A DNA stretch of 47,873 nucleotides, taken from the NCBI GenBank assembly GCA_903829085.1, contig CAIKOL010000224.1, positions 1-47,873 of the forward strand, read 5' to 3'. The position numbers and the translations under genes were made by a program. Below the pieces are notes generated by a model that searched no databases, was not told the DNA's origin, and saw only the letters and a program-made list of their open reading frames with translations. The stretch's first letter is position 1. Each line of letters begins with the position of its first letter. The stretch is from an uncultured Anaerolineales bacterium (GTDB lineage Bacteria; Chloroflexota; Anaerolineae; Anaerolineales; Villigracilaceae). Shown piece after piece: positions 3,411 to 47,751 of the stretch.

Positions 3411-4294
3411 TGGTCTCCAAATACACCGATCTCAGCATAATACCAGACTTCCCCCCGCCGGGCAAAAAAGGCCACCATATCCTTGGACATATGGGGATTT
3501 AACGTCGCCGAGCTGCAGCAGCCATAATGCAGGACTTCATCGTAACCGAGCGGGACATCGGTACTATCATACCAGGCATCAATCCTGCCATTCTGTTTAA
3601 AGAAGTAGAACGGTCTATCATGGATGGTCTGAAAACCAAAAACCTCGTCATAGCCATATTCTTCGTTCAACAGTACACCGTCCACGCTGACCTGCCCGAG
3701 GGCGTCGCTGTAAACCACGTTGCCCTCACTCCGCTCTGTAATGTAAGCCGTTTCCAGCGCCCAATGCTCCCCATAGGCCCACAAACCACGTAAACCATCG
3801 ATCGGACTGACTTGCCCGATGGGTATTTCATAGATCGGTTCGCCGTTGCGCGTCAGAGTGACCGTACCGTAACTCTGATCGTGATAATTTTCCTGGGCGA
3901 TCAAGGTATCTGCACCCAGCCTGACGCACCTCCCCAGACCATTCATTAAAATACAGGAGCTGTCAAAGAATGCAAAAACTTTCGACCGCTCGCTGGCGTG
4001 GATCAGGAGCGGGTCGTCCTGGACGGAATCAGCAAAGTACAGCAGTAGGGATTCCGGCTCGGGCGGCTTCTTGAGCGGGTATTCGTTGAAGCTCAACTCC
4101 AGCGTCATGGATGGCGAGGTCGTTGGAATGACGGTGGGCGTGTTGGGTGCCAAAGTTGTAGGAGTGGCGATGGACGGTACGGGAGTGGGAGTAGGTGAAG
4201 TAGCGATGAGTGCAGTACAGGCTACCAGAGCAGACAGGAGGACAAGCGCAAGAACCTCTTGCACCGGAGTCAAACAGGGAGAGGCCTTTTTCAT
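3407..4294 (-). CDS. Hypothetical lipoprotein/secreted protein, paralog of 5805..6716
   Basis: Signal peptide with VAC lipobox-like motif, Thr/Pro linker, C-terminal HYGCCSSATLNPHM...WYYAEIGVFGDQ. Confidence 0.7.
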   Translation of the reverse strand: MKKASPCLTPVQEVLALVLLSALVACTALIATSPTPTPVPSIATPTTLAPNTPTVIPTTSPSMTLELSFNEYPLKKPPEPESLLLYFADSVQDDPLLIHASERSKVFAFFDSSCILMNGLGRCVRLGADTLIAQENYHDQSYGTVTLTRNGEPIYEIPIGQVSPIDGLRGLWAYGEHWALETAYITERSEGNVVYSDALGQVSVDGVLLNEEYGYDEVFGFQTIHDRPFYFFKQNGRIDAWYDSTDVPLGYDEVLHYGCCSSATLNPHMSKDMVAFFARRGEVWYYAEIGVFGDQ

Positions 4295-6756: not shown

Positions 6757-7869
6757 CTAGCCCACTACCCGCAGCTCACGCGGCATATCGCTCAGGCATT
6801 CCACGCCAGTATCCGTGATGACCATGTTATCTTCGATGCGCACCCCGTTGCGCTCCGGCAGGTAGATGCCCGGCTCGACCGTGTAAGCCATGCCCGGCTG
6901 CAATAATTGGAGATTATCGCCGCGCATGTAGGGTTCCTCATGGCCTTCCATGCCTATGCCATGACCGGTGCGGTGGGTGAAATAGACTCCGTAACCGGAT
7001 CGCTCGATGACCTTGCGCGCGGCCTGGTCCACTACGGCACAGGCAAGACCGGGTTTGCCCACCGCCCGCCCGGCTGCATTGGCTTCCAGCACCACCTGGT
7101 GGATCTTGCGATACTCCTCTTGCACATCCCTCACGGCAAAGGTGCGCGTCAGGTCAGAGATGTACCCATCCACCGCTGCACCCCAATCCACCACCAGCAG
7201 ATCGCCAGGCTGGATCTTGCGGTTGGAGGGCGAGGCGTGCGGGTTGGCGCTGTTCGGCCCACCCGAAACGATGGGCGCGAACGGCATCTCGGATTGGCTC
7301 CCACTGCGCAGCAACTGGACAACCAATTCCGAGGCCAGTTCGTTTTCGGTCATGCCGGTTTTGATCAGCGGGATGGTCGCTTCCAGGGCGGACTGCGCCA
7401 CTTTGACCGCCTTACGCATGGCGACAATTTCGTCTTTATCCTTGCAGATCCGCAGGCTGCTGACCAGCTCGGATGCGTCCGGGAAATCGGTGCGACGGCT
7501 GGCTGTCCCGGTTGCAGCTTCCAGGCTGCGGAACTCCAGCAGGCGCATCTGGCGCGGTTCCACGCCAATGCGTTTTCCATCCAATTTCAGAAATCCCACC
7601 GCCTGGCGGAAGACCGCCTGCCAATCGGCGGGATTCTCTGGGTATGGGAAAGCTTTCACCGGCATCCCGCTCACCTTGAGCATTTCCAGTTCCGGCAGGA
7701 CAATGACTGGTTCGTTGCCCGGGGTGAAGAGCGCCACGACCGGGCGTTCTGAAAGGTGGAAATGCAACCCGGTCAGGTAGACCAGGCTGGGGCCGGCATT
7801 CAATGCCAGGGCCTCCAGTCCGGAGGTCTGCATCGCAGCAGAAAGTTTGGAAAGACGGGAGGAAGTCAT
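6757..7869 (-). CDS. Xaa-Pro peptidase family (M24)
   Basis: VDWGAAVDGYISDLTRTF, HRTGHGIGMEGHEEPYM, TVEPGIYLP metal-binding motifs. Confidence 0.92.
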   Translation of the reverse strand: MTSSRLSKLSAAMQTSGLEALALNAGPSLVYLTGLHFHLSERPVVALFTPGNEPVIVLPELEMLKVSGMPVKAFPYPENPADWQAVFRQAVGFLKLDGKRIGVEPRQMRLLEFRSLEAATGTASRRTDFPDASELVSSLRICKDKDEIVAMRKAVKVAQSALEATIPLIKTGMTENELASELVVQLLRSGSQSEMPFAPIVSGGPNSANPHASPSNRKIQPGDLLVVDWGAAVDGYISDLTRTFAVRDVQEEYRKIHQVVLEANAAGRAVGKPGLACAVVDQAARKVIERSGYGVYFTHRTGHGIGMEGHEEPYMRGDNLQLLQPGMAYTVEPGIYLPERNGVRIEDNMVITDTGVECLSDMPRELRVVG

Positions 7870-35683: not shown

Positions 35684-35896
35684 TCAGGTGAAACCTCCCG
35701 ACGAGCCACAGCCGCTGTCGAAGGACCCTGCAGCTCCTGAACCCGACAGTCCAAAAGAAAAAACTGCAGAAATCTTCTTGTGGGTATCTTCACTCTCACA
35801 TTTAGGACAAGCCGGTTTCAAATCAGCTTCAGAAAATCGCACCATTTTTTCAAAAGGTTCACCGCATTGATTACATTCATATTCGTAAATGGGCAT
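35684..35896 (-). CDS. FmdB family zinc-ribbon protein
   Basis: MPIYEYECNQCGEPFEKMV...CPKCES. Confidence 0.92.
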   Translation of the reverse strand: MPIYEYECNQCGEPFEKMVRFSEADLKPACPKCESEDTHKKISAVFSFGLSGSGAAGSFDSGCGSSGGFT

Positions 35897-37283: not shown

Positions 37284-37724
37284 ATGGATATTCTCTTTCA
37301 TCCCATCGGGATAATTCACACACCGTTCAGTGAAACCGCCGGAACGCCCATCCAGGCCTCCCGCTCAACGGCCCGCGGAGTTGTGGAGCTCTACCCGGAA
37401 TTTGCTGAGGGGCTGCAGGATCTGGAAGGGTTCTCTCACATCTTCCTGGTGTACGCTTTTCACGAATCGACAGGCTATTCTTTGCTTGTCAAACCGTTCC
37501 TTGACGATAAATTGCATGGTTTATTTGCCACCCGCTTTCCCAGTCGGCCGAACCCGATCGGTTTATCGGTGGTCAGGCTGATCATGCGAACAGGGATTTC
37601 GCTGGATGTGGAAGGGGTGGATATGCTGGATGGCACTCCGCTCCTGGATATCAAGCCCTACCTCCCGGAATTCGATGTCCGGACCAATACCCGTAATGGG
37701 TGGTACGATACCCGAAATAATTAA
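37284..37724 (+). CDS. trmO: tRNA m6t6A37 methyltransferase (TrmO/TsaA, UPF0066)
   Basis: PIGIIHTPF, FATRFPSRPNPIGLSVVRL, LDIKPYLPEFD. Confidence 0.92.
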   Translation: MDILFHPIGIIHTPFSETAGTPIQASRSTARGVVELYPEFAEGLQDLEGFSHIFLVYAFHESTGYSLLVKPFLDDKLHGLFATRFPSRPNPIGLSVVRLIMRTGISLDVEGVDMLDGTPLLDIKPYLPEFDVRTNTRNGWYDTRNN

Positions 37725-37749
37725 TCGCCATTTTCTATTGGAGGTCGGC

Positions 37750-38226
37750 ATGTCAAGAAAACGTCCGAATTCAAAACGCTCATCCTCTGAACCCACGTTC
37801 CATCAAGGACATAAAACAAAAAAACGAAACATGGCTTGGTTGTGGGTCAGCCTGGGAGCTGTGCTGTTTGCCCTGGTCGGAATCCTTGTACTCGCCCCCA
37901 AACGTACACCTTCCGTTGAAATCACTCCTGCCCAGGCAAATACAAAATTTCAGCAGGGGGCGTTCTTCCTGGATGTACGCAGCCAGGCAGAATGGGAGCA
38001 ATTCCATATCGCGGGCAGCACTCTGATCCCGCTGGATCAACTTCAAAATCGATTGGGCGAACTGCCAAAAGATCAAGATATCGTTGTGGTTTGTCTCTCT
38101 GGTCACCGCGCCCAGAGCGGAGTCACCATCCTGCAGCAGGCTGGATTTAAAAAGATAACTTACTTGAGCGGGGGGTTACAGGCGTGGATCTCGGCAGGCT
38201 ATCCAATCGAAGGAATCGCTCCGTAA
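37750..38226 (+). CDS. Membrane-anchored rhodanese-like protein
   Basis: FFLDVRSQAEWEQFHIAGS, VVCLSGHRAQSG active-site loop; N-terminal TM. Confidence 0.93.
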   Translation: MSRKRPNSKRSSSEPTFHQGHKTKKRNMAWLWVSLGAVLFALVGILVLAPKRTPSVEITPAQANTKFQQGAFFLDVRSQAEWEQFHIAGSTLIPLDQLQNRLGELPKDQDIVVVCLSGHRAQSGVTILQQAGFKKITYLSGGLQAWISAGYPIEGIAP

Positions 38227-38395: not shown

Positions 38396-38737
38396 ATGGA
38401 CACATCCAACCTAACCCAGGAAATCACCCAACTGCACGCTGAACTGTGTTCTGCCCTTGCAGAATCGACCCGCCTGTTCATCCTTTACGCACTGGCGGAA
38501 CAACCCTGCACTGTAACCGAACTGACCCAAAAACTGGAACTTCCCCAACCGACCATCTCCCGCCATCTTAAAGTCCTGCGGGATGCCGGGCTGGCACGCG
38601 CCACCCGCCAGGGCATGAGCATCCAATATGAGCTTACTGACCGGCGGGTCATCGAAGCGCTGGACCTGTTGCGCAGCGTGTTGCGCGACCGCATCCAGCA
38701 TCACGCCGATCTCATGGATGAATTTATCCCAGCCTGA
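38396..38737 (+). CDS. ArsR/SmtB family transcriptional regulator
   Basis: ALAESTRLFILYALAEQPCTVTELTQKLELPQPTISRHLKVLRDAGLA. Confidence 0.93.
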   Translation: MDTSNLTQEITQLHAELCSALAESTRLFILYALAEQPCTVTELTQKLELPQPTISRHLKVLRDAGLARATRQGMSIQYELTDRRVIEALDLLRSVLRDRIQHHADLMDEFIPA

Positions 38738-38783
38738 CCAAGACCAACGATCTTCCTAATCCATCTGTTTGAACGAGGTGCAC

Positions 38784-39608
38784 ATGAGTCAAAAAAGGAT
38801 CACCTTCATCTTCCTGACCATTGGCCTGCTGCTGGTGATGGGCAGCCTCTACCTGATGACCGCCACGCCTGCCAAAGCCCAGTGTGGCTCACAGGCTTCG
38901 TCCTGCAAGAACTGCCATGAAACGCAGGCCCAAGACCCGGTCAACAGCGACGGCACAGCCTGGCACACCCAGCACGCCTTTGGCGATTTCTGCTACCTGT
39001 GCCATGCCGGCAACAACCAGGCCACCGATAAGGCCGCCGCCCACACCGGTATGGTGGCTCCCCTCTCGGATATCGTCACCAACTGCAAAGGCTGCCATCC
39101 CACCGACTACCAGGCCCAGGCGCAGGTTTATGCCACCACCCTGGGCATTCAGCTTGGGAGCGGCTCTGCATCGGCCACAGCCGTCCCTGCCTCCACCACC
39201 CCCGTACCTACCTCCAGCGGAACAGTTGCCAGCGCTCCAGTTTCAATCTCACTGGCGGTGGATGACCCCAATCTGGTAAATTACGTCCAGCGCTACGATG
39301 AGATCGTACTGGGCAAACATCCCATCAATTGGGGCAATATCATTCTGCTGGTCATGATTGCAATGTTCGCACTGGGCGGTGGCGGATTTGTCCTCGTGCA
39401 CGAAAAGTTGGTCAAAGTGTCGTTCGGCGATACAAAAAAGGTGGAAGGGGAATATCCCGGCGATGTGGTGGACATGCTGCCTGCCATCACCGGCTTGAAG
39501 CCCCAGGCTCGCAAATCGCTGAGAAGCATCCTCGAAAACCCCAGGAAGACCGAAAAAGTGCTTGGACTGATCGACGAAGTCATATCAGATGAGAAAACGG
39601 AGGAATGA
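38784..39608 (+). CDS. Triheme membrane-anchored cytochrome c
   Basis: CKNCH, CYLCH, CKGCH motifs; N-terminal signal and internal TM. Confidence 0.85.
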   Translation: MSQKRITFIFLTIGLLLVMGSLYLMTATPAKAQCGSQASSCKNCHETQAQDPVNSDGTAWHTQHAFGDFCYLCHAGNNQATDKAAAHTGMVAPLSDIVTNCKGCHPTDYQAQAQVYATTLGIQLGSGSASATAVPASTTPVPTSSGTVASAPVSISLAVDDPNLVNYVQRYDEIVLGKHPINWGNIILLVMIAMFALGGGGFVLVHEKLVKVSFGDTKKVEGEYPGDVVDMLPAITGLKPQARKSLRSILENPRKTEKVLGLIDEVISDEKTEE

Positions 39609-39612
39609 TGTC

Positions 39613-40158
39613 ATGAAATTCATAATGAACTATATCCGCAAGGATACCTGGTCGCCCTATATCGCAGGGATCCTGCTGGGCGTGGTCGGCATCCTGACCG
39701 TCGTGCTGACCAAGAGCCTGTTGGGCGCTTCAGGTGCGTTCGAGAACCTGGCCGGGATGATCGGCAAGGCCATCGCCCCGTCGGCCTTCAATAATATGTA
39801 CTTCAACTTCATCATGCCACCCGGGATCACCTCCGGGGTGATCCTCCTGGTTGGCGTGTTCTTCGGCGGCATGGCCGCTGCAGCCACCAGCAAGACGCTG
39901 AAATGGGGCAAGAAGGATGCCGCCAACAGCGATAAGCAGTGGAAACGTATCTTTGGACCGCAGACCTGGAAACGCTGGGTGCTGGGATTCTTCGGTGCGA
40001 TCATCCTTGAATATGGCGCCGGGATCGCTGGCGGCTGTACCAGCGGTCTGGCAATTTCAGGCGGCATGCTGCTCGCTCCGGCCGCCTTCCTGTTCATCGC
40101 CGGGATGTTCGCTTCCGGCATCGTCACCGCCCTGATCGTCTATCGCAGGAGGTATTAG
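39613..40158 (+). CDS. YeeE/YedE family transporter subunit A
   Basis: YGAGIAGGCTSGLAISGGMLLAPAAFLF; hydrophobic helices. Confidence 0.9.
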   Translation: MKFIMNYIRKDTWSPYIAGILLGVVGILTVVLTKSLLGASGAFENLAGMIGKAIAPSAFNNMYFNFIMPPGITSGVILLVGVFFGGMAAAATSKTLKWGKKDAANSDKQWKRIFGPQTWKRWVLGFFGAIILEYGAGIAGGCTSGLAISGGMLLAPAAFLFIAGMFASGIVTALIVYRRRY

Positions 40159-40159
40159 A

Positions 40160-40726
40160 ATGGCTGTTCCTTTGATAACCTTGTTCCTGGGTGCCTGCTT
40201 TGGCTTTTCGCTCAATAAAGCCGGCTTGACCAAGTACCACAAGATCGTCAATGTTTTCCGGTTGACCGATATGGCCGTGCTCCAATTCATGATGACCGCC
40301 CTGGTGGTTGCCATGATCGGGCTATATGGCTTGCGTGGGTTGGGATTGATCACCTTCCCGACTGTCCCCGCCACTTACATCGTGGGTAACCTCGTCGGCG
40401 GGCTGATATTCGGGGTTGGGATGGCCCTGACCGGGTACTGACCAGGCACATGTGTCGCCGGGTCCGGCGAAGGAAAATTAGATTATATCGTCCCTGGTTT
40501 ACTTGGTTTTCTGGCTGGTGCAGTGATTTACGGCATGACCTATCAACAGGTTTTTCCCCAGATCTCCGCGATCGCCAATTATGGCAGCGTGGTGATGCCT
40601 GGTCTATGGAACCTTAACCCATACCTGACCGTTCTGGCTTTTTCGCTCATGGCCCTGCTGTTGTTCTACCTGATCGACCGGGTCGGGCTGAAACGCAAGG
40701 ATAAGGAAGCTGGCGAGGAAGAATAG
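40160..40726 (+). CDS. YeeE/YedE family transporter subunit B; proposed selenoprotein read through UGA at 40439-40441 (GY-U-PGTCVAGSGEGKLDY)
   Basis: ORFs 40160..40441 and 40523..40726 lie in one frame; the intervening codons PGTCVAGSGEGKLDYIVPGLLGFLAGA match the family; UGA occupies the conserved Cys position. Confidence 0.85.
40455..40470 (+). promoter_or_regulatory. Candidate bacterial SECIS: TCGCCG-GGTC-CGGCGA stem-loop
   Basis: Perfect 6-bp stem, GGUC tetraloop at nt 23-26 counted from U of UGA. Confidence 0.7.
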
Positions 40727-40764
40727 ATCTGCATGTTCTTTGAATACCGGGATTGGAGAAAACC

Positions 40765-42948
40765 ATGACTATCAATTTTACGCGGCGCGACTTTCTTAAA
40801 GTCGGCGGCGCCGCGGCGGGTGCATTGGCGCTTGGGCATTTTATTCCACCCCGGGTGGCGGAAGCTGCCCGGCTGAGCGGGATATTGGACGCCACGGACA
40901 GCGGGTACATCCCCAGCATGTGTGAAATGTGTGTCTGGCGTTGCGGCCTGTTGGCGAAGGTTGAGCAGGGGCGCGTGGTCAAACTGGAGGGCAATCCCGA
41001 TCATCCGCATTCACGTGGCAATCTTTGTCCGCGCGGCCAGTCCGGCCTGATGAACACCTACGACCCGGACCGTGTCTTGAATCCCCTCATCCGGGTTGGC
41101 AAGCGCGGTGAGGGCTTGTTCCGCAAAGCCTCCTGGGAGGAAGCGCTGGACCTGGTGGCTCAAAATATGCTGGATATCAAGCAAAAATACGGGGCCGAGG
41201 CCATGGTCTTTTCGTCCACGCATAATTTAAGCCAGCCGCTGTTTGAGAACCTGCTGTATGCCTTTGGTTCGCCCAACTATGGCACCCAGCGCTCGCTGTG
41301 TTTTAACGCCATGATTGTCTCGAACCTGATGACCTATGGCATGGAAGAACCCGCCCGCATCTACGATGACAATCTCAGCTACATTTTGCTGACCGGACGC
41401 AACCTGTTCGAAGCCATCTCCACCTCCGAGACCCATGACTTGAGTGCCGCCATCGATCGCGGCGCAAAGGTGGTGTACCTGGACCCGCGCTTCACCAAGA
41501 CCGCCGCCAAGGCCAGCGAGTGGCTGCCCATCAAGCCTGGTATGGATCTGGCCTTCCACCTGGCCCTTCTGAATGTGATTGTTAATGAACGACTGTATAA
41601 CATTCCCTTTGTTTCACTAAACACGATCGGCTTTGACAAGCTGCAGGTGGAGCTTCAGCCCTACACGCCTGCCTGGGCAGCCCCATTAACCGGCATCGCC
41701 GCCGAGACCATTACCCGCATTGCGCGCGAATTTGCCGCCGCAGCCCCGCATGCCCTGGCGCACAACGGCTGGCGCACTTCCAACTTCATCAACTCGTTCC
41801 ATACCCAGCGCGCCATCAGCATCCTGAATGCACTGGTGGGCAACTGGGGGGTGACCTTGACCGGTGGCGGCAGCGAAGAAAGCTCAACCCTGGGTGCACC
41901 GCCTCAACCTCCTTACCCGCGCATTTCTGCCATGCGTCTTGATGGTGTGCCGTGGAAGTATCCGGTGGTACCGCTCAAGATTGGCGTGTTCCAGGAATTA
42001 CGCGACAACATCGTTAAAGGCGACCCGTACCAGGCGCACGGCTGGTTCATTGCCCGCCAAAATCCTGCCATGTCCATCTCCGACCGTGCCAGAACACTCG
42101 AAGCTTTTGGCAAGATGGATTTCATCGTCACGATGGATATCATTCTCAACGATACCTCCTGGTTCTCGGACGTCGTCCTGCCCGAAGCCTCCTATTTGGA
42201 ACGCTACGACCCGCTCGTGCCGATCGGGGACCAGGTCTTCATCCGTCAGCCGGTCATCGAACCCCAGGGGGAAGCCAAATCCGCTTTGTGGATTTACAGG
42301 CAGTTGGGCCAGCGGCTTGGGCTGGGTGATTTCTTCCAATATATTGACGAGGAAGATTACCTGCGACAGGAACTTGCGCCGCTCGGGGTCAGCCTGGAGG
42401 AAGTTAAAGCCAAAGGATATGCCCAGCTTTCTGAAACGCCCCACGCCAGCGAAACGAGTGAACCGAGTTGGAGTACGCCCAGTGGAAAGATCGAGTTGTA
42501 TTCCGATACGCTTGCCAAGGTGGGCTTCCCCGGCGTACCCACCTGGGAGGAACCTCCTCAACCTGCAGAAGGTCAGTTCTATTTGCTGACCGGCAAGGTG
42601 GCGCAGCAAACCCAGTTCGGCACGCAGAACAATCTACTGCTGCACAAGTATTCCGACGAGCCGCGCCTGTGGATGAATGCCAACAAAGCCGCGTCCCTCG
42701 GGCTTGCGGATGGCGATTGGGTGGAAGTGACCAGTGACATTGGGAAGGTGAATATCCGCTTGCTTGCCACGCAAGCCATCCGTGAGGACTGTGTCTACCT
42801 GACCCCCGGCTACGGCCATCTCTCTAAAGGTCTGACCACCGCCTTTGGCATCGGCGCGAGTGATTCGGCTTTACACGTCACCTATACCGACCCCATCAGC
42901 GGCGGCCAGGCGCTCAGCCAGACATTCGTCACAGTCAAAAAGGCTTAG
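40765..42948 (+). CDS. Molybdopterin oxidoreductase, Psr/Phs/Ttr-type catalytic subunit, TAT-exported
   Basis: TAT TRRDFLKVGG; CEMCVWRCG...NLCPRGQSG FeS site; molybdopterin dinucleotide-binding C-terminus. Confidence 0.92.
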   Translation: MTINFTRRDFLKVGGAAAGALALGHFIPPRVAEAARLSGILDATDSGYIPSMCEMCVWRCGLLAKVEQGRVVKLEGNPDHPHSRGNLCPRGQSGLMNTYDPDRVLNPLIRVGKRGEGLFRKASWEEALDLVAQNMLDIKQKYGAEAMVFSSTHNLSQPLFENLLYAFGSPNYGTQRSLCFNAMIVSNLMTYGMEEPARIYDDNLSYILLTGRNLFEAISTSETHDLSAAIDRGAKVVYLDPRFTKTAAKASEWLPIKPGMDLAFHLALLNVIVNERLYNIPFVSLNTIGFDKLQVELQPYTPAWAAPLTGIAAETITRIAREFAAAAPHALAHNGWRTSNFINSFHTQRAISILNALVGNWGVTLTGGGSEESSTLGAPPQPPYPRISAMRLDGVPWKYPVVPLKIGVFQELRDNIVKGDPYQAHGWFIARQNPAMSISDRARTLEAFGKMDFIVTMDIILNDTSWFSDVVLPEASYLERYDPLVPIGDQVFIRQPVIEPQGEAKSALWIYRQLGQRLGLGDFFQYIDEEDYLRQELAPLGVSLEEVKAKGYAQLSETPHASETSEPSWSTPSGKIELYSDTLAKVGFPGVPTWEEPPQPAEGQFYLLTGKVAQQTQFGTQNNLLLHKYSDEPRLWMNANKAASLGLADGDWVEVTSDIGKVNIRLLATQAIREDCVYLTPGYGHLSKGLTTAFGIGASDSALHVTYTDPISGGQALSQTFVTVKKA

Positions 42949-42957
42949 AGGTGAATC

Positions 42958-43749
42958 ATGACTGAGATCAAGCACAAGGCTTTCCTGTTTGACGCCACCC
43001 GCTGCATCGACTGCCGGGCCTGCATGGTGGCCTGCAGTGTCGAGAATAAGATTGACATGGACAAGACCCGCATCTGGGTGGCTGGAGTTGGGGTCAAGGG
43101 AGTATTCCCGGAGCTTCAACGCGCTTCCATGGTTTACCACTGCATGCACTGTAACGAGCCAGATTGCCTGTCGGCCTGCCCGGTAGGTGCCTACAGCAAG
43201 CGCCCGGACGGGCCGGTGATCTACGACCCCAAGAAGTGCATCGGCTGCCGGTACTGCATGAATGCCTGCCCGTTTGGCGTGCCGCACTTCGATTGGGATA
43301 AGGGCCTGGTGGAGGGTGCTTTTATCGATAAATGCACCATGTGCCCCCAGCGCATTGACATTGGCCTGGAGCCGGCCTGCGTGGCTACCTGCCCCACCGA
43401 TGCGCTCATGTTTGGCGAACGGGATGACCTCCTGAAATATGCCCACGACCGCCTCACCGCCCAACCTGCACGGTACATCAACCATGTCTATGGCGAAAAT
43501 GAGAATGGTGGCACTTCCTATTTCATCCTTTCGCATGTTCCATTCGAAGAGCTGGGTCTGCCCCCGCTTACGTCCACTCCGGTCAAAGAAGTCAGCGAAA
43601 AGGTGATGGAAGTTACCATTCCCTTTGCCCTCGGTTGGGGTGCCGTTCTGACCGGTGTCGCCGCGGGGGTACACGTGTACAACCAGAAGAAAGAAGCGGA
43701 TGCAAAGAAAGTTGAAACTTCCGAACCGCAGACGGAGGAGAAAAAATGA
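42958..43749 (+). CDS. 4Fe-4S dicluster electron-transfer subunit (PsrB/DmsB-like)
   Basis: CIDCRACMVACSVEN, CMHCNEPDCLSACP, CIGCRYCMNACPFGVP, CTMCPQRI. Confidence 0.95.
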   Translation: MTEIKHKAFLFDATRCIDCRACMVACSVENKIDMDKTRIWVAGVGVKGVFPELQRASMVYHCMHCNEPDCLSACPVGAYSKRPDGPVIYDPKKCIGCRYCMNACPFGVPHFDWDKGLVEGAFIDKCTMCPQRIDIGLEPACVATCPTDALMFGERDDLLKYAHDRLTAQPARYINHVYGENENGGTSYFILSHVPFEELGLPPLTSTPVKEVSEKVMEVTIPFALGWGAVLTGVAAGVHVYNQKKEADAKKVETSEPQTEEKK

Positions 43750-44924
43750 ATTTAAAAATAGTGATCCATCCGCGCTTTCATTTGAAGCCTCTAGTGCTCA
43801 TTCTCCTGGCCTTGATGGGAATCGCTTTTATCATTGCCATGCTGCGTTATGCCAATGGGATTGGTGCCGTCAGCAACCTGAACAATTCCTACCCCTGGGC
43901 TTTTTGGATCAGTTTTGACCTGTTCACGGGGGTGGCGATCAGCAGCGGCGGTTTTCTAATGGCGGGGGCTGTTTACATCTTCGAACTCAAGCAGTTCAAG
44001 CCGCTCCTTCGGCCCTCCATATTAACCGCCTTTCTAGGTTACATCATGGTCGTTGTCGCTCTTCTGGTTGACCTGGGTCACCCGGAGCGCATCTGGTACA
44101 TGATGATCCACATGAACCCTACCTCGGTTCTCCTGGAGATCGGTATCTGCGTGATGACCTATCTGACCGTGCTTGCCATCGAGTTTGCCCCCATCGTTTT
44201 TGAGGGCCTGAAATGGCAGAAGTTCGCCCATTTCATCCATCGCTTCATCATGCCATTTGTGATCCTGGGCGTGGTACTATCCACCCTGCACCAATCCTCG
44301 CTCGGTTCGCTTCTCCTGATCCAACCTGCCAAGCTGTATCCTTTGTGGTGGTCACCCATCCTCCCGATCCTGTTTTTCATTTCTGCGCTTTCGATCGGGT
44401 TGTCCATGATTATCTTTGAATCGTCACTCAGTTCGCGTTACTTCCACCGCGGCCTGGAAATCCACCTGCTGGAAAAGCTAGCAAAAGCCATCGTGGTTAT
44501 TTTGGGAATTTACGCGCTGGTTAAATTTGGTGAGCTCCTCATCGCCGGAGATATGAAATATCTTTTCACGAGTGGCTGGATGAGTGTCCTGTTTTTGGCG
44601 GAAATCATCATCGGAGTCGTTATCCCAATGATCCTATTCTCGTTCAAAAGAATACGTCAGAACGCTAATGGGCTGCTCATTGGAGCAATTACTGTGCTGG
44701 TTGGCATGATCCTGAATCGTTTTGATGTGAGCTGGTTTGGCGTCCAGCATCCTGATCCGATCACCTATATGCCCACATTTATGAGCGCTGTTCACTATAT
44801 CCCCTCTCTGCCGGAAGTGCTCGTTTCGGTGGGCATCTTCTCGGCTGGCATCCTGGCCTTTGGCCTGGCAGCAAAATACCTGCCGGTCTTCGAGGCTGAG
44901 GAGCACCCCGGCACGGAGTCATAA
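43746..44924 (+). CDS. nrfD: NrfD/PsrC-type membrane subunit
   Basis: YPWAFWISFDLFTGVAISSGGFLMAGAVYIF, VDLGHPERIWYMMIHMNPTSVLLEI. Confidence 0.94.
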   Translation: MNLKIVIHPRFHLKPLVLILLALMGIAFIIAMLRYANGIGAVSNLNNSYPWAFWISFDLFTGVAISSGGFLMAGAVYIFELKQFKPLLRPSILTAFLGYIMVVVALLVDLGHPERIWYMMIHMNPTSVLLEIGICVMTYLTVLAIEFAPIVFEGLKWQKFAHFIHRFIMPFVILGVVLSTLHQSSLGSLLLIQPAKLYPLWWSPILPILFFISALSIGLSMIIFESSLSSRYFHRGLEIHLLEKLAKAIVVILGIYALVKFGELLIAGDMKYLFTSGWMSVLFLAEIIIGVVIPMILFSFKRIRQNANGLLIGAITVLVGMILNRFDVSWFGVQHPDPITYMPTFMSAVHYIPSLPEVLVSVGIFSAGILAFGLAAKYLPVFEAEEHPGTES

Positions 44925-44959
44925 GATTTGTTGTGCCACTGGTAACCCCCTGAACCAAG

Positions 44960-44988
44960 AAAACCGCTCCAGGCAAAGGGGCGGTTTT
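44960..44988 (+). terminator. Rho-independent terminator AAAACCGCTCC-AGGCAAA-GGGGCGGTTTTT
   Basis: 11-bp stem (one G:U), 7-nt loop, T tract. Confidence 0.85.
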
Positions 44989-45012
44989 TCAAGCCCCGGG
45001 TATAATCTTACT

Positions 45013-46047
45013 ATGCGCCCGAATTTCTTTCACCACCTGCATCCTCCCACTATCCCCGCCCGCCAGGCACGCCTGCGCTACACCCTGGCAGCTGGGGGTC
45101 TGGCGGTATTCCTGGCGCTGGTATTGCTGGTCACCGGCCTGCTGGAGATGTTCTACTACATCCCCACCCCCGACCAGGCCGCGGTTTCCATCCAGACCCT
45201 GACCTTCCTCGTCCCTTACGGCGGGCTGGTGCGCAACCTGCATTACTGGTCGGCGCAGTTCCTGGTGATCGTTACGCTTGTCCATCTTCTGCGCGTCATT
45301 TTCACCGGCGCATACGCCCCTCCCCGCCGGTTCAACTACCTGCTGGGCATGGGATTGCTGGTGCTGGCAATATTGTTGGATTTTACCGGCTATGTACTGC
45401 GCTGGGATGAGGGCATCCGCTGGGCGCTGGTGACCGGCACCAACCTGGTCAGATCCATCCCCCTGGTCGGGAACCCCCTTTATACGATCCTGGTCGGTGG
45501 CACCCAGCCCGGCCCGGCCACATTGATCCGTTTCTACGGCTGGCACATCCTTGGCCTGACGCTGGTCGCCGGGATTCTGCTGGTCTGGCACCTCTTCCGG
45601 GTGCGCCGGGATGGTGGCATTGCCGTGCCTCCCCCTGCTTTGCGGGAGGACCAGGTTCGCATCACGCGTTATGAGCTCCTGCGCCGCGAAGGCGTTGCCA
45701 TGCTGCTGGCAGCCACCGGCCTGCTCCTGCTCTCAACCTTCGTCGCGGCGCCGCTGGCTGCCCCGATCACCGCATCAGCCTCAACCTCTGAGATGGCGCG
45801 TGCCCCCTGGTTTTTCCTGTGGGTCCAGCAGATGCTCAAGCTGGGCAATCCTTTTTTCTGGGGGGGGATTGTGCCGCTGGCGGTGCTGGTGCTCATTTCC
45901 TTCATCCCCTATTTCTTCCCCCAACCTGCCAAAGGCGAACTTGGGCATTGGTTTCCGAAGGGGAACCGCCTCGCCCAGGCAGTGGCTTTGTTCATCCTGA
46001 TCGCGATCATTGCCCTGACCATACTCGCTTTGCTGCCAGCCGCTTAA
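45013..46047 (+). CDS. Cytochrome b (bc-complex type)
   Basis: HYWSAQFLVIVTLVHLLRVIFTGAY, RWDEGIRWALVTGTNLVRSIPLVG, FYGWHILGLTLVAGILLVWHLFRVRRDGG. Confidence 0.92.
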   Translation: MRPNFFHHLHPPTIPARQARLRYTLAAGGLAVFLALVLLVTGLLEMFYYIPTPDQAAVSIQTLTFLVPYGGLVRNLHYWSAQFLVIVTLVHLLRVIFTGAYAPPRRFNYLLGMGLLVLAILLDFTGYVLRWDEGIRWALVTGTNLVRSIPLVGNPLYTILVGGTQPGPATLIRFYGWHILGLTLVAGILLVWHLFRVRRDGGIAVPPPALREDQVRITRYELLRREGVAMLLAATGLLLLSTFVAAPLAAPITASASTSEMARAPWFFLWVQQMLKLGNPFFWGGIVPLAVLVLISFIPYFFPQPAKGELGHWFPKGNRLAQAVALFILIAIIALTILALLPAA

Positions 46048-46056
46048 CCCTGCATT

Positions 46057-47316
46057 ATGCGCCGTTCTATCTTCCATGCCGCTTCAATCACTCTCCTGCT
46101 CAGCCTGCTCATCGCAGCCTGGCAGGAAAGCCGGCATCCGCAACCCATTGTCCTGACCCCCAGTCTGACCGGGCAGGCGGAATACTGTCTCACCTGCCAC
46201 TCGGATCTGCCCCAGATCAGCAACTCGCATCCGGTTCAAACCTTTGGCTGTGTGCTCTGTCATGGCGGTGAGCGCCTGGCCCTGGACGCGAACCTGGCAC
46301 ATTCCACCCTGCGCGGCGGCAGGAACCCTGCGGATTTCTCGGTCGTGCAGGCCTCCTGTGGAGGCGCCAATTGCCACAGTGGCACGGCGGAAAGTTTCAA
46401 CAACCACATCCAGCGCGCCACCACCAGCATCCAGGCTACTTATGCCGGCGCCATTGCCAGCATCCGTTATACCTTCGGCGCTCAACCGGATCTGACCGGC
46501 CGTCTGGGGATATTCGCCGTCCAGGTGCCTGCCAGCACCAGCGGCATCACCGCATTGGCAGCCTTTGATCCGGCCATCGAAACCAATCCTTTTGTGCAGG
46601 CTTTCGGTCAGAACTGTCTCACCTGTCATCTTTCCGCCCAACCCATCCAGACCGGCAGCCGCTACGACCATTTCACCGGTTGTTCAGCCTGCCACACTCC
46701 CACCCAATCCGGCGACCTGAACAGTGTGAACACCGGCACAGCCACTCAAGTCCACAAGCTGACCACTGCCATCGCATATTCCCAGTGCGATACCTGCCAC
46801 AACCGCGGCAACTACGACCTGCGCACGATGACCTTCCAGCCCCGCGCCGACCTGCCCGCCGACCAGCTGCACGATTACTATCAGCCCATTGCCCAGTTCA
46901 CAAAATGCGAATACAGCCTCGATTGCGTGGATTGCCATACCCGCACCGAGGCCATGGGGGATGGCAGCCTGTACGGCAGCAAGAAAGACATCCAGTATAT
47001 CCAATGCAAAACCTGCCACGGCACCTCCACCGAACTGCCGCAGGTCAAAACGCTGACCGACCCGAACGATCTGGCCTTCCGCCTGGCGTTGCTCAACCCG
47101 GTGGTTGACCTGAAGCTGGGCGACACGCTCCTGTTCACCGCCAAGGGCGAACCGCTCTGGAACACACGCCTGCTGCCGGATGGCACCTACCAGTTGGTTG
47201 GAAAAGTCACCGGCCAGGTCTTCCCTTTTAAACCCGTCTTGGGTAGTGGCTGCACCCAGAATGGCGTAAACCAGACCTCCGCTTATTGTCACACCTGCCA
47301 CTCGGTGCAACGGTAA
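46057..47316 (+). CDS. Multiheme (about nine-heme) cytochrome c
   Basis: Eight CxxCH motifs (CLTCH, CVLCH, CLTCH, CSACH, CDTCH, CVDCH, CKTCH, CHTCH) plus one CGGANCH (CX4CH). Confidence 0.88.
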   Translation: MRRSIFHAASITLLLSLLIAAWQESRHPQPIVLTPSLTGQAEYCLTCHSDLPQISNSHPVQTFGCVLCHGGERLALDANLAHSTLRGGRNPADFSVVQASCGGANCHSGTAESFNNHIQRATTSIQATYAGAIASIRYTFGAQPDLTGRLGIFAVQVPASTSGITALAAFDPAIETNPFVQAFGQNCLTCHLSAQPIQTGSRYDHFTGCSACHTPTQSGDLNSVNTGTATQVHKLTTAIAYSQCDTCHNRGNYDLRTMTFQPRADLPADQLHDYYQPIAQFTKCEYSLDCVDCHTRTEAMGDGSLYGSKKDIQYIQCKTCHGTSTELPQVKTLTDPNDLAFRLALLNPVVDLKLGDTLLFTAKGEPLWNTRLLPDGTYQLVGKVTGQVFPFKPVLGSGCTQNGVNQTSAYCHTCHSVQR

Positions 47317-47319
47317 ATA

Positions 47320-47751
47320 ATGTCGGATATCTCCCGTCGCGACTTTTTAAAACTTGCCGTGAAAGCCACCTTGGCAGCCTGCAGCCTGCTTGGATTGGAC
47401 GGGTTGATCCGCTTCCTGGATACGCAGACCGATCCGGCCCCACAGACCGACTTCGACCTTGGCCCGGCCTCCAGTTATGCCGTCGGTTCGCGCAGCCTCC
47501 GTCCTGAGATCCCGGCCGTTATCATGCGCACGGAAAGCGGGTTCACCGCCCTCAGCCTGGTCTGCACCCACCTGGGATGCACGGTGGAAAGCAAGCCGGA
47601 GGGTTTTACTTGCCCGTGTCATGGCTCCCGGTTCGACCCGCAAGGGCAGGTGCTGCGCGGCCCGGCTCAAAAGCCGCTCAATTCCCTGCGCACCAGTATC
47701 ACTTCCGATGGGAAGTTGCACGTATATACAATTTGGTCCATTGGGAATTAG
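47320..47751 (+). CDS. Rieske [2Fe-2S] protein, TAT-exported
   Basis: SRRDFLKLAV; CTHLGC...CPCHGSRFDPQGQVLRGPA. Confidence 0.95.
   Translation: MSDISRRDFLKLAVKATLAACSLLGLDGLIRFLDTQTDPAPQTDFDLGPASSYAVGSRSLRPEIPAVIMRTESGFTALSLVCTHLGCTVESKPEGFTCPCHGSRFDPQGQVLRGPAQKPLNSLRTSITSDGKLHVYTIWSIGN

Follow-up and report, generated by a model that had tools for sequence, protein, structure and literature searches.

The thiosulfate transporter TsuA (YeeE) of S. thermophila (StTsuA; structures 6LEO, 6LEP, 8J4C and 8K1R) is a single chain of 330-350 residues that has three cysteines and YeeD as its partner; Cys293, Cys91 and Cys22 line the thiosulfate path, and the transporter cannot do without Cys91 and Cys293 (PMC11073785, PMC11582611). 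The PmpA/PmpB pair of Serratia and Hyphomicrobium is built of two half-size subunits of ~130 residues, with one conserved thiol each at the positions of Cys91 and Cys293 (PMC11582611). YeeE/YedE proteins are already present among selenoproteins in the literature, with a motif other than the one described here: a YeeE/YedE thiosulfate transporter family selenoprotein carrying GUxSG (WP_012471001.1) has been tabulated (PMC13188914; also PMC9312934). The papers that we searched describe no UPGT variant and no case from Chloroflexota. In a stretch of 47,873 nucleotides from an uncultured Anaerolineales bacterium (hereafter the window), we found a gene that very probably encodes such a selenoprotein, namely the N-terminal half of a split YeeE/YedE-type transporter in which UGA codon 94 stands for selenocysteine (Sec94). 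In the papers searched we found neither a UPGT site on the N-terminal half of a split transporter, nor the SECIS-like hairpin and the operon that go with it, nor the alternation of Sec and Cys within the Chloroflexota. We computed directly the recoded codon, the selection acting on the gene, the SECIS-like hairpin, the Sec machinery of the host, the conserved operon, and both the homology and the position of the site. Predicted selenoproteins are mostly redox enzymes, and to our knowledge very few transporters are found among them.

The gene occupies positions 40160..40726 of the plus strand, a frame of 189 codons (closing TAG counted) for a product of 188 aa, and its sole internal TGA is codon 94 (40439..40441), preceded by ...GVGMALTGY and followed by PGTCVAGSGEGKLDY. 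We reproduced the coordinates of the original prediction, in which an open reading frame stops at this TGA and the same frame stays open to 40726; the TGT-encoded Cys that it had assigned to the motif GGCTSG of the partner subunit (39613..40158, plus strand) is likewise seen in the sequence. The start codon lies 1 nt past the stop of the partner gene, with a strong AGGAGG ahead of it. When the TGA is read through, the product matches PF04143 with 72.3 bits (cut-off 27) over profile positions 11-150, and the recoded site, GY-U-PGT (GYUPGT), falls at the invariant cysteine of YeeE/YedE-type (PF04143) subunits. The partner covers positions 170-309 of the same profile (48.7 bits, cut-off 27) and thus constitutes the C-terminal half, its GGCTSG Cys corresponding to Cys293 of TsuA; GGxTSG always contains Cys among the 73 homologues with a readable motif. 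BLASTP found no significant similarity between the two halves, and a PDB sequence search with the C-terminal half gave no match.

Alignment to 6LEO places Sec94 on Cys91 of TsuA and Thr24 on Cys22. A first AlphaFold model of the N-terminal half, based on 20 close relatives, was too poor (pLDDT 42.5) and was replaced using a wider alignment (pLDDT 79.5). The new model matches TsuA structures only, with Z scores of 9.8-10.4 (next unrelated structure, 2.5), and 6lep is its sole Foldseek match (TM 0.64). The window system therefore shares with StTsuA the PF04143 fold and the thiol position of Cys91, yet it consists of two chains, carries Sec at the second position of the Cys293/Cys91/Cys22 triad and Thr at the third, and scores only 33.7 bits against the NCBIfam TsuA equivalog model (cut-off 400). 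Since Cys22 is absent and a search of the host genome, which is 80% complete, revealed no partner of the TusA/YeeD type, the known TsuA-TsuB route is not directly transferable. The pair fits the split plan of PmpA and PmpB, with two half-size subunits and a conserved thiol in each, though it is longer (~180-188 residues), has five hydrophobic segments in its N-terminal half, and stays below the cut-off of DUF6691 (PF20398), the family of short half-size relatives (25.7 bits versus 27). It further differs from PmpA/PmpB by Sec in place of Cys and by an operon of the polysulfide/thiosulfate-reductase type. With WP_012471001.1 it has in common the PF04143 domain and a UGA at a conserved Cys, and it differs in motif, GYUPGT instead of GUxSG.

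The identity of the codon was compared in two sets of relatives. Out of 101 relatives of the host, 21 (host counted) possess a close homologue (identity of at least 69%), and with strands corrected the codon is TGA in 13 of them and TGC in 8. Across 84,980 species genomes we found 62 Chloroflexota loci, distributed over TGA (31), TGC (28) and TGT (3) with no other codon, and a further 18 loci of more remote kinship, almost all of them from non-Chloroflexota phyla, which have TGC or TGT throughout. Removal of duplicates left 34 non-redundant TGA genes, a recurrence at one exact codon that goes far beyond what chance would produce. In an alignment of 45 diverse homologues including full-length YeeE, this column is invariant when TGA is taken as Cys. 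Downstream of the codon, TGA genes mostly continue for 88-100 codons, with one gene cut short by the end of its contig, and the median pN/pS of this part is 0.24 in TGA genes versus 0.25 in Cys genes, the window gene giving 0.11-0.23 against its nearest relatives. Given this length and these ratios, the stretch downstream of the TGA is part of a full-length protein under purifying selection. The Cys codons (TGC/TGT) that the original prediction suggested looking for in relatives thus exist, and the decay beyond the TGA that it named as a sign of a pseudogene is seen in none of the homologues, where frame and selection are intact. A pseudogene, an assembly error or a read error might come to mind for a host genome that is a fragmented MAG, but we give this practically no credence, as many assemblies contribute to the 34 non-redundant loci that share this TGA; its recurrence in independent loci makes a read error implausible. 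UGA recoding always competes with termination, and three predicted hydrophobic segments precede the UGA, which would be compatible with a functional 93-residue N-terminal fragment and a readthrough that is minor or selenium-regulated. Such a reading is very unlikely in view of the full length of the part encoded after the TGA in complete genes and of a selection equal to that on the Cys forms.

The host genome (G000) encodes all four components that were to be sought as a check of the original prediction (selA, selB, selC and selD): a tRNA-Sec with anticodon TCA, a SelA (445.6 bits), a SelB in two contig-end pieces (212.7 and 180.5 bits, each alone below the model cut-off), and a SelD that is itself a selenoprotein, with its UGA at the position known for SelD (SNCAGUASK; locus L049, G000:C350:7207-8139, minus strand). 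Across relatives, a SelA match of at least 200 bits was obtained in 30/30 TGA genomes versus 26/32 Cys genomes (Fisher p = 0.024), a weak association, given that SelA is nearly universal among the relatives and that related genomes are non-independent. A tRNA-Sec above the Rfam cut-off was detected in 11 of the 13 TGA genomes searched, and the remaining two have SelA. As relatives have Cys at this residue, one could also imagine that a reassigned code or a suppressor makes UGA stand for Trp or Cys. This is most improbable: TGA is the ordinary stop of three genes of the same operon (those for the ArsR regulator, the c-type cytochrome and the Fe-S protein), hence there is no global reassignment, and the genome has the full Sec machinery together with a SECIS-like hairpin that is specific to TGA genes. 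The TGA/Cys alternation, the lack of decay and the sel genes all support the reading of UGA as Sec at the conserved Cys that had been predicted, and we regard the insertion of selenium at codon 94 as nearly certain.

A bacterial SECIS is a hairpin located just 3' of the UGA, with a G in its apical loop, ~16-37 nt from the UGA. In the window, a computed structure of this kind, TCGCCG-GGUC-CGGCGA, is found at 40455..40470 (plus strand), with a loop that begins 19 nt past the UGA, and it has the attributes of a bacterial SECIS. All 34 TGA genes have a hairpin at this fixed place, with a GG-starting loop (GGU or GGC) 18-19 nt past the UGA, and two solutions are used: the type of the window, with 5 of 6 pairs in two genes, and variants of (G)CCGCC-GGU-GGCGG(C), one of which shows a C-G to U-A exchange (GCCGCU-GGU-AGCGGC). 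When a rule of at least 6 bp was fixed for all genes, it was passed by 32/34 TGA genes versus 6/42 Cys genes, and the two TGA genes that fall below it have 5 bp and the same GGUC loop. Synonymous shuffles pass this rule in ~20% (TGA genes) and ~14% (Cys genes) of cases, and single hairpins are only modestly rare with respect to such shuffles (fractions of 0.015-0.13). Predicted energies separate the groups, the mean being -11.7 kcal/mol in TGA genes versus -5.6 kcal/mol in Cys genes (Mann-Whitney p = 3e-12, a guide only, as the rows are related). A fold window that starts at the UGA has another minimum-energy structure, while folding the stretch 3' of the UGA returns the SECIS-like hairpin; the evidential weight therefore lies on the comparison across genes, and not on one energy. 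The RNA hairpin also appears to constrain the protein at residue +8 from the Sec/Cys site, where all Sec genes encode Ser or Gly and 18/32 Cys genes encode Ala, because pairing in the second arm of the hairpin would be disrupted by an Ala codon.

Sec and Cys forms are intermixed on a quick tree, with 11 parsimony changes, just 2 of which are forced by well-supported branches. At one locus (L107; gene 3494-4027, plus strand), a TGT occupies the place of the TGA while the SECIS-like hairpin (within 3770-3830) is perfectly kept; SelA is encoded in the same genome, the sister on the tree is a Sec form (starred support), and this locus is probably the fossil trace of a recent Sec-to-Cys change. The TGA form is also present in a MAG labelled Brevefilum fermentans (L071), and a cultured relative might thus serve for a selenium test. 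The plasmid records searched contain distant relatives only. Residue -3 is Thr in 30/34 Sec forms versus 1/32 Cys forms, the others having Ser (24) or Ala (7), and Thr could be a structural companion of Sec. Residue +4, Cys98 of the window gene (U-P-G-T-C), is Cys in every Sec form (34/34) and Ala in 8/32 Cys forms (Fisher p = 0.0018); shared ancestry may account for part of this Thr -3 / Cys +4 pattern. Sec-Cys pairs are common in redox selenoproteins, and Sec94 might accordingly be a redox or gating switch that forms a selenenylsulfide with Cys98, the channel being opened or closed by redox state. This is the main rival to a role of Sec94 in relaying the substrate, though we consider it rather unlikely: Cys98 is also found in 24/32 Cys forms, its association with Sec may be inherited along the tree, and the homologous TsuA uses the equivalent thiol for transport (PMC11073785, PMC11582611).

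The genes of the operon around the pair all lie on the plus strand. Upstream lie an ArsR/SmtB-family regulator (38396..38737, TGA stop; profile searches) and, directly before the pair, a membrane-anchored c-type cytochrome with three CxxCH motifs (38769..39608, TGA stop; sequence and hydropathy). Downstream follows a PsrA/PhsA-like Tat-exported molybdopterin oxidoreductase (40753..42948) that reaches 557.7 bits with the NCBIfam PhsA model, below its cut-off of 694, and whose best solved relative is thiosulfate reductase (2vpw chain A, 444.6 bits, nearly full length). Profile searches then identified a 4Fe-4S electron-transfer subunit (42958..43749, TGA stop), an NrfD-type membrane subunit (43746..44924), a cytochrome b/b6-like protein (44860..46047, real start probably later) and a multihaem cytochrome c (46057..47316), and the operon ends with a Rieske-like iron-sulfur protein (47320..47751), named from its sequence alone. 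Nearly all Chloroflexota loci share the order ArsR, c-type cytochrome, C-terminal half, N-terminal half, molybdoenzyme and Fe-S protein, after which NrfD, cytochrome b, multihaem cytochrome and the Rieske-like protein generally come next. Standard gene callers would thus misannotate the N-terminal half as two fragments in roughly every second such operon of the Chloroflexota. As in Psr/Phs reductases (2VPW), a molybdoenzyme akin to the catalytic subunit precedes Fe-S and NrfD subunits; beyond these, the operon of the window includes the transporter pair, the cytochrome b, multihaem cytochromes and the Rieske-like protein. Promoter and terminator scans of the window were uninformative. Because the molybdoenzyme is closest to polysulfide/thiosulfate reductases, a sulfur compound is favoured as the substrate, and we consider it likely that the pair transports one. 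A link with selenium metabolism has been described for YedE-type relatives (PMC5322559, as cited in PMC9312934), and there are weak matches to seleno-YedE models (22-26 bits versus cut-offs of 200-350), so the pair might be imagined as a selenium-supply system that moves selenite, selenide or elemental selenium (Se0) rather than a sulfur compound. This seems improbable, since nearly every locus lies in a polysulfide/thiosulfate-reductase-like operon and not beside sel genes, and since the same operon, with the Cys form in it, is retained by genomes devoid of selA.

We propose that SelB and tRNA-Sec of the host would decode UGA 94 as Sec under the direction of the hairpin just downstream, and that the N-terminal half would pair with the C-terminal half encoded directly upstream. 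Sec94 would then take the place of Cys91 of TsuA, the middle thiol of the pore, and the GGCTSG Cys of the partner that of Cys293, the outer one. A selenol surpasses a thiol both as a nucleophile and as a leaving group. Most likely, the selenolate would transiently bind sulfane sulfur, thiosulfate or polysulfide at a point between the partner's outer cysteine and the cytoplasm and hand it across the membrane, to the benefit of the PsrA/PhsA-like respiratory molybdoenzyme and of the operon's cytochromes. On balance, we lean slightly towards the selenol being such a relay residue. If so, natural Sec and Cys versions of one pore would exist, a set that would allow a direct test of the use of selenium in transport. 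In a Selenomonadales MAG (L136), the gene for the C-terminal half, which runs from near 7456, has an in-frame TGA near 7847-7849 (ADG-U-PSGHG), at the Cys293-type GUPSG site, and matches the tabulated GUxSG motif. This suggests that Sec can occupy the thiol of the C-terminal half too, but SelA was not found in this MAG. We tentatively put forward a wider view, about which we remain divided, in which the selenol relays the substrate in the pore, the Chloroflexota site flips repeatedly between Sec and Cys while the rest of the respiratory sulfur operon stays constant, and Sec may sit on the other half in other lineages, the pore thiols being alternative sites for selenium.

Among the other read-through frames of the window, judged by eye, we saw no convincing second selenoprotein. 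A rhodanese-domain protein (37606-38226, plus strand) is present in its Cys form and reaches 40.7 bits with the (seleno)protein model NF041203, versus a cut-off of 115; the start listed for it gives an overlap with TrmO and was probably placed too early. An FmdB-type zinc-ribbon protein (35684-35896, minus strand), from a family with known selenoprotein members (PMC2398784), has all its positions as Cys.
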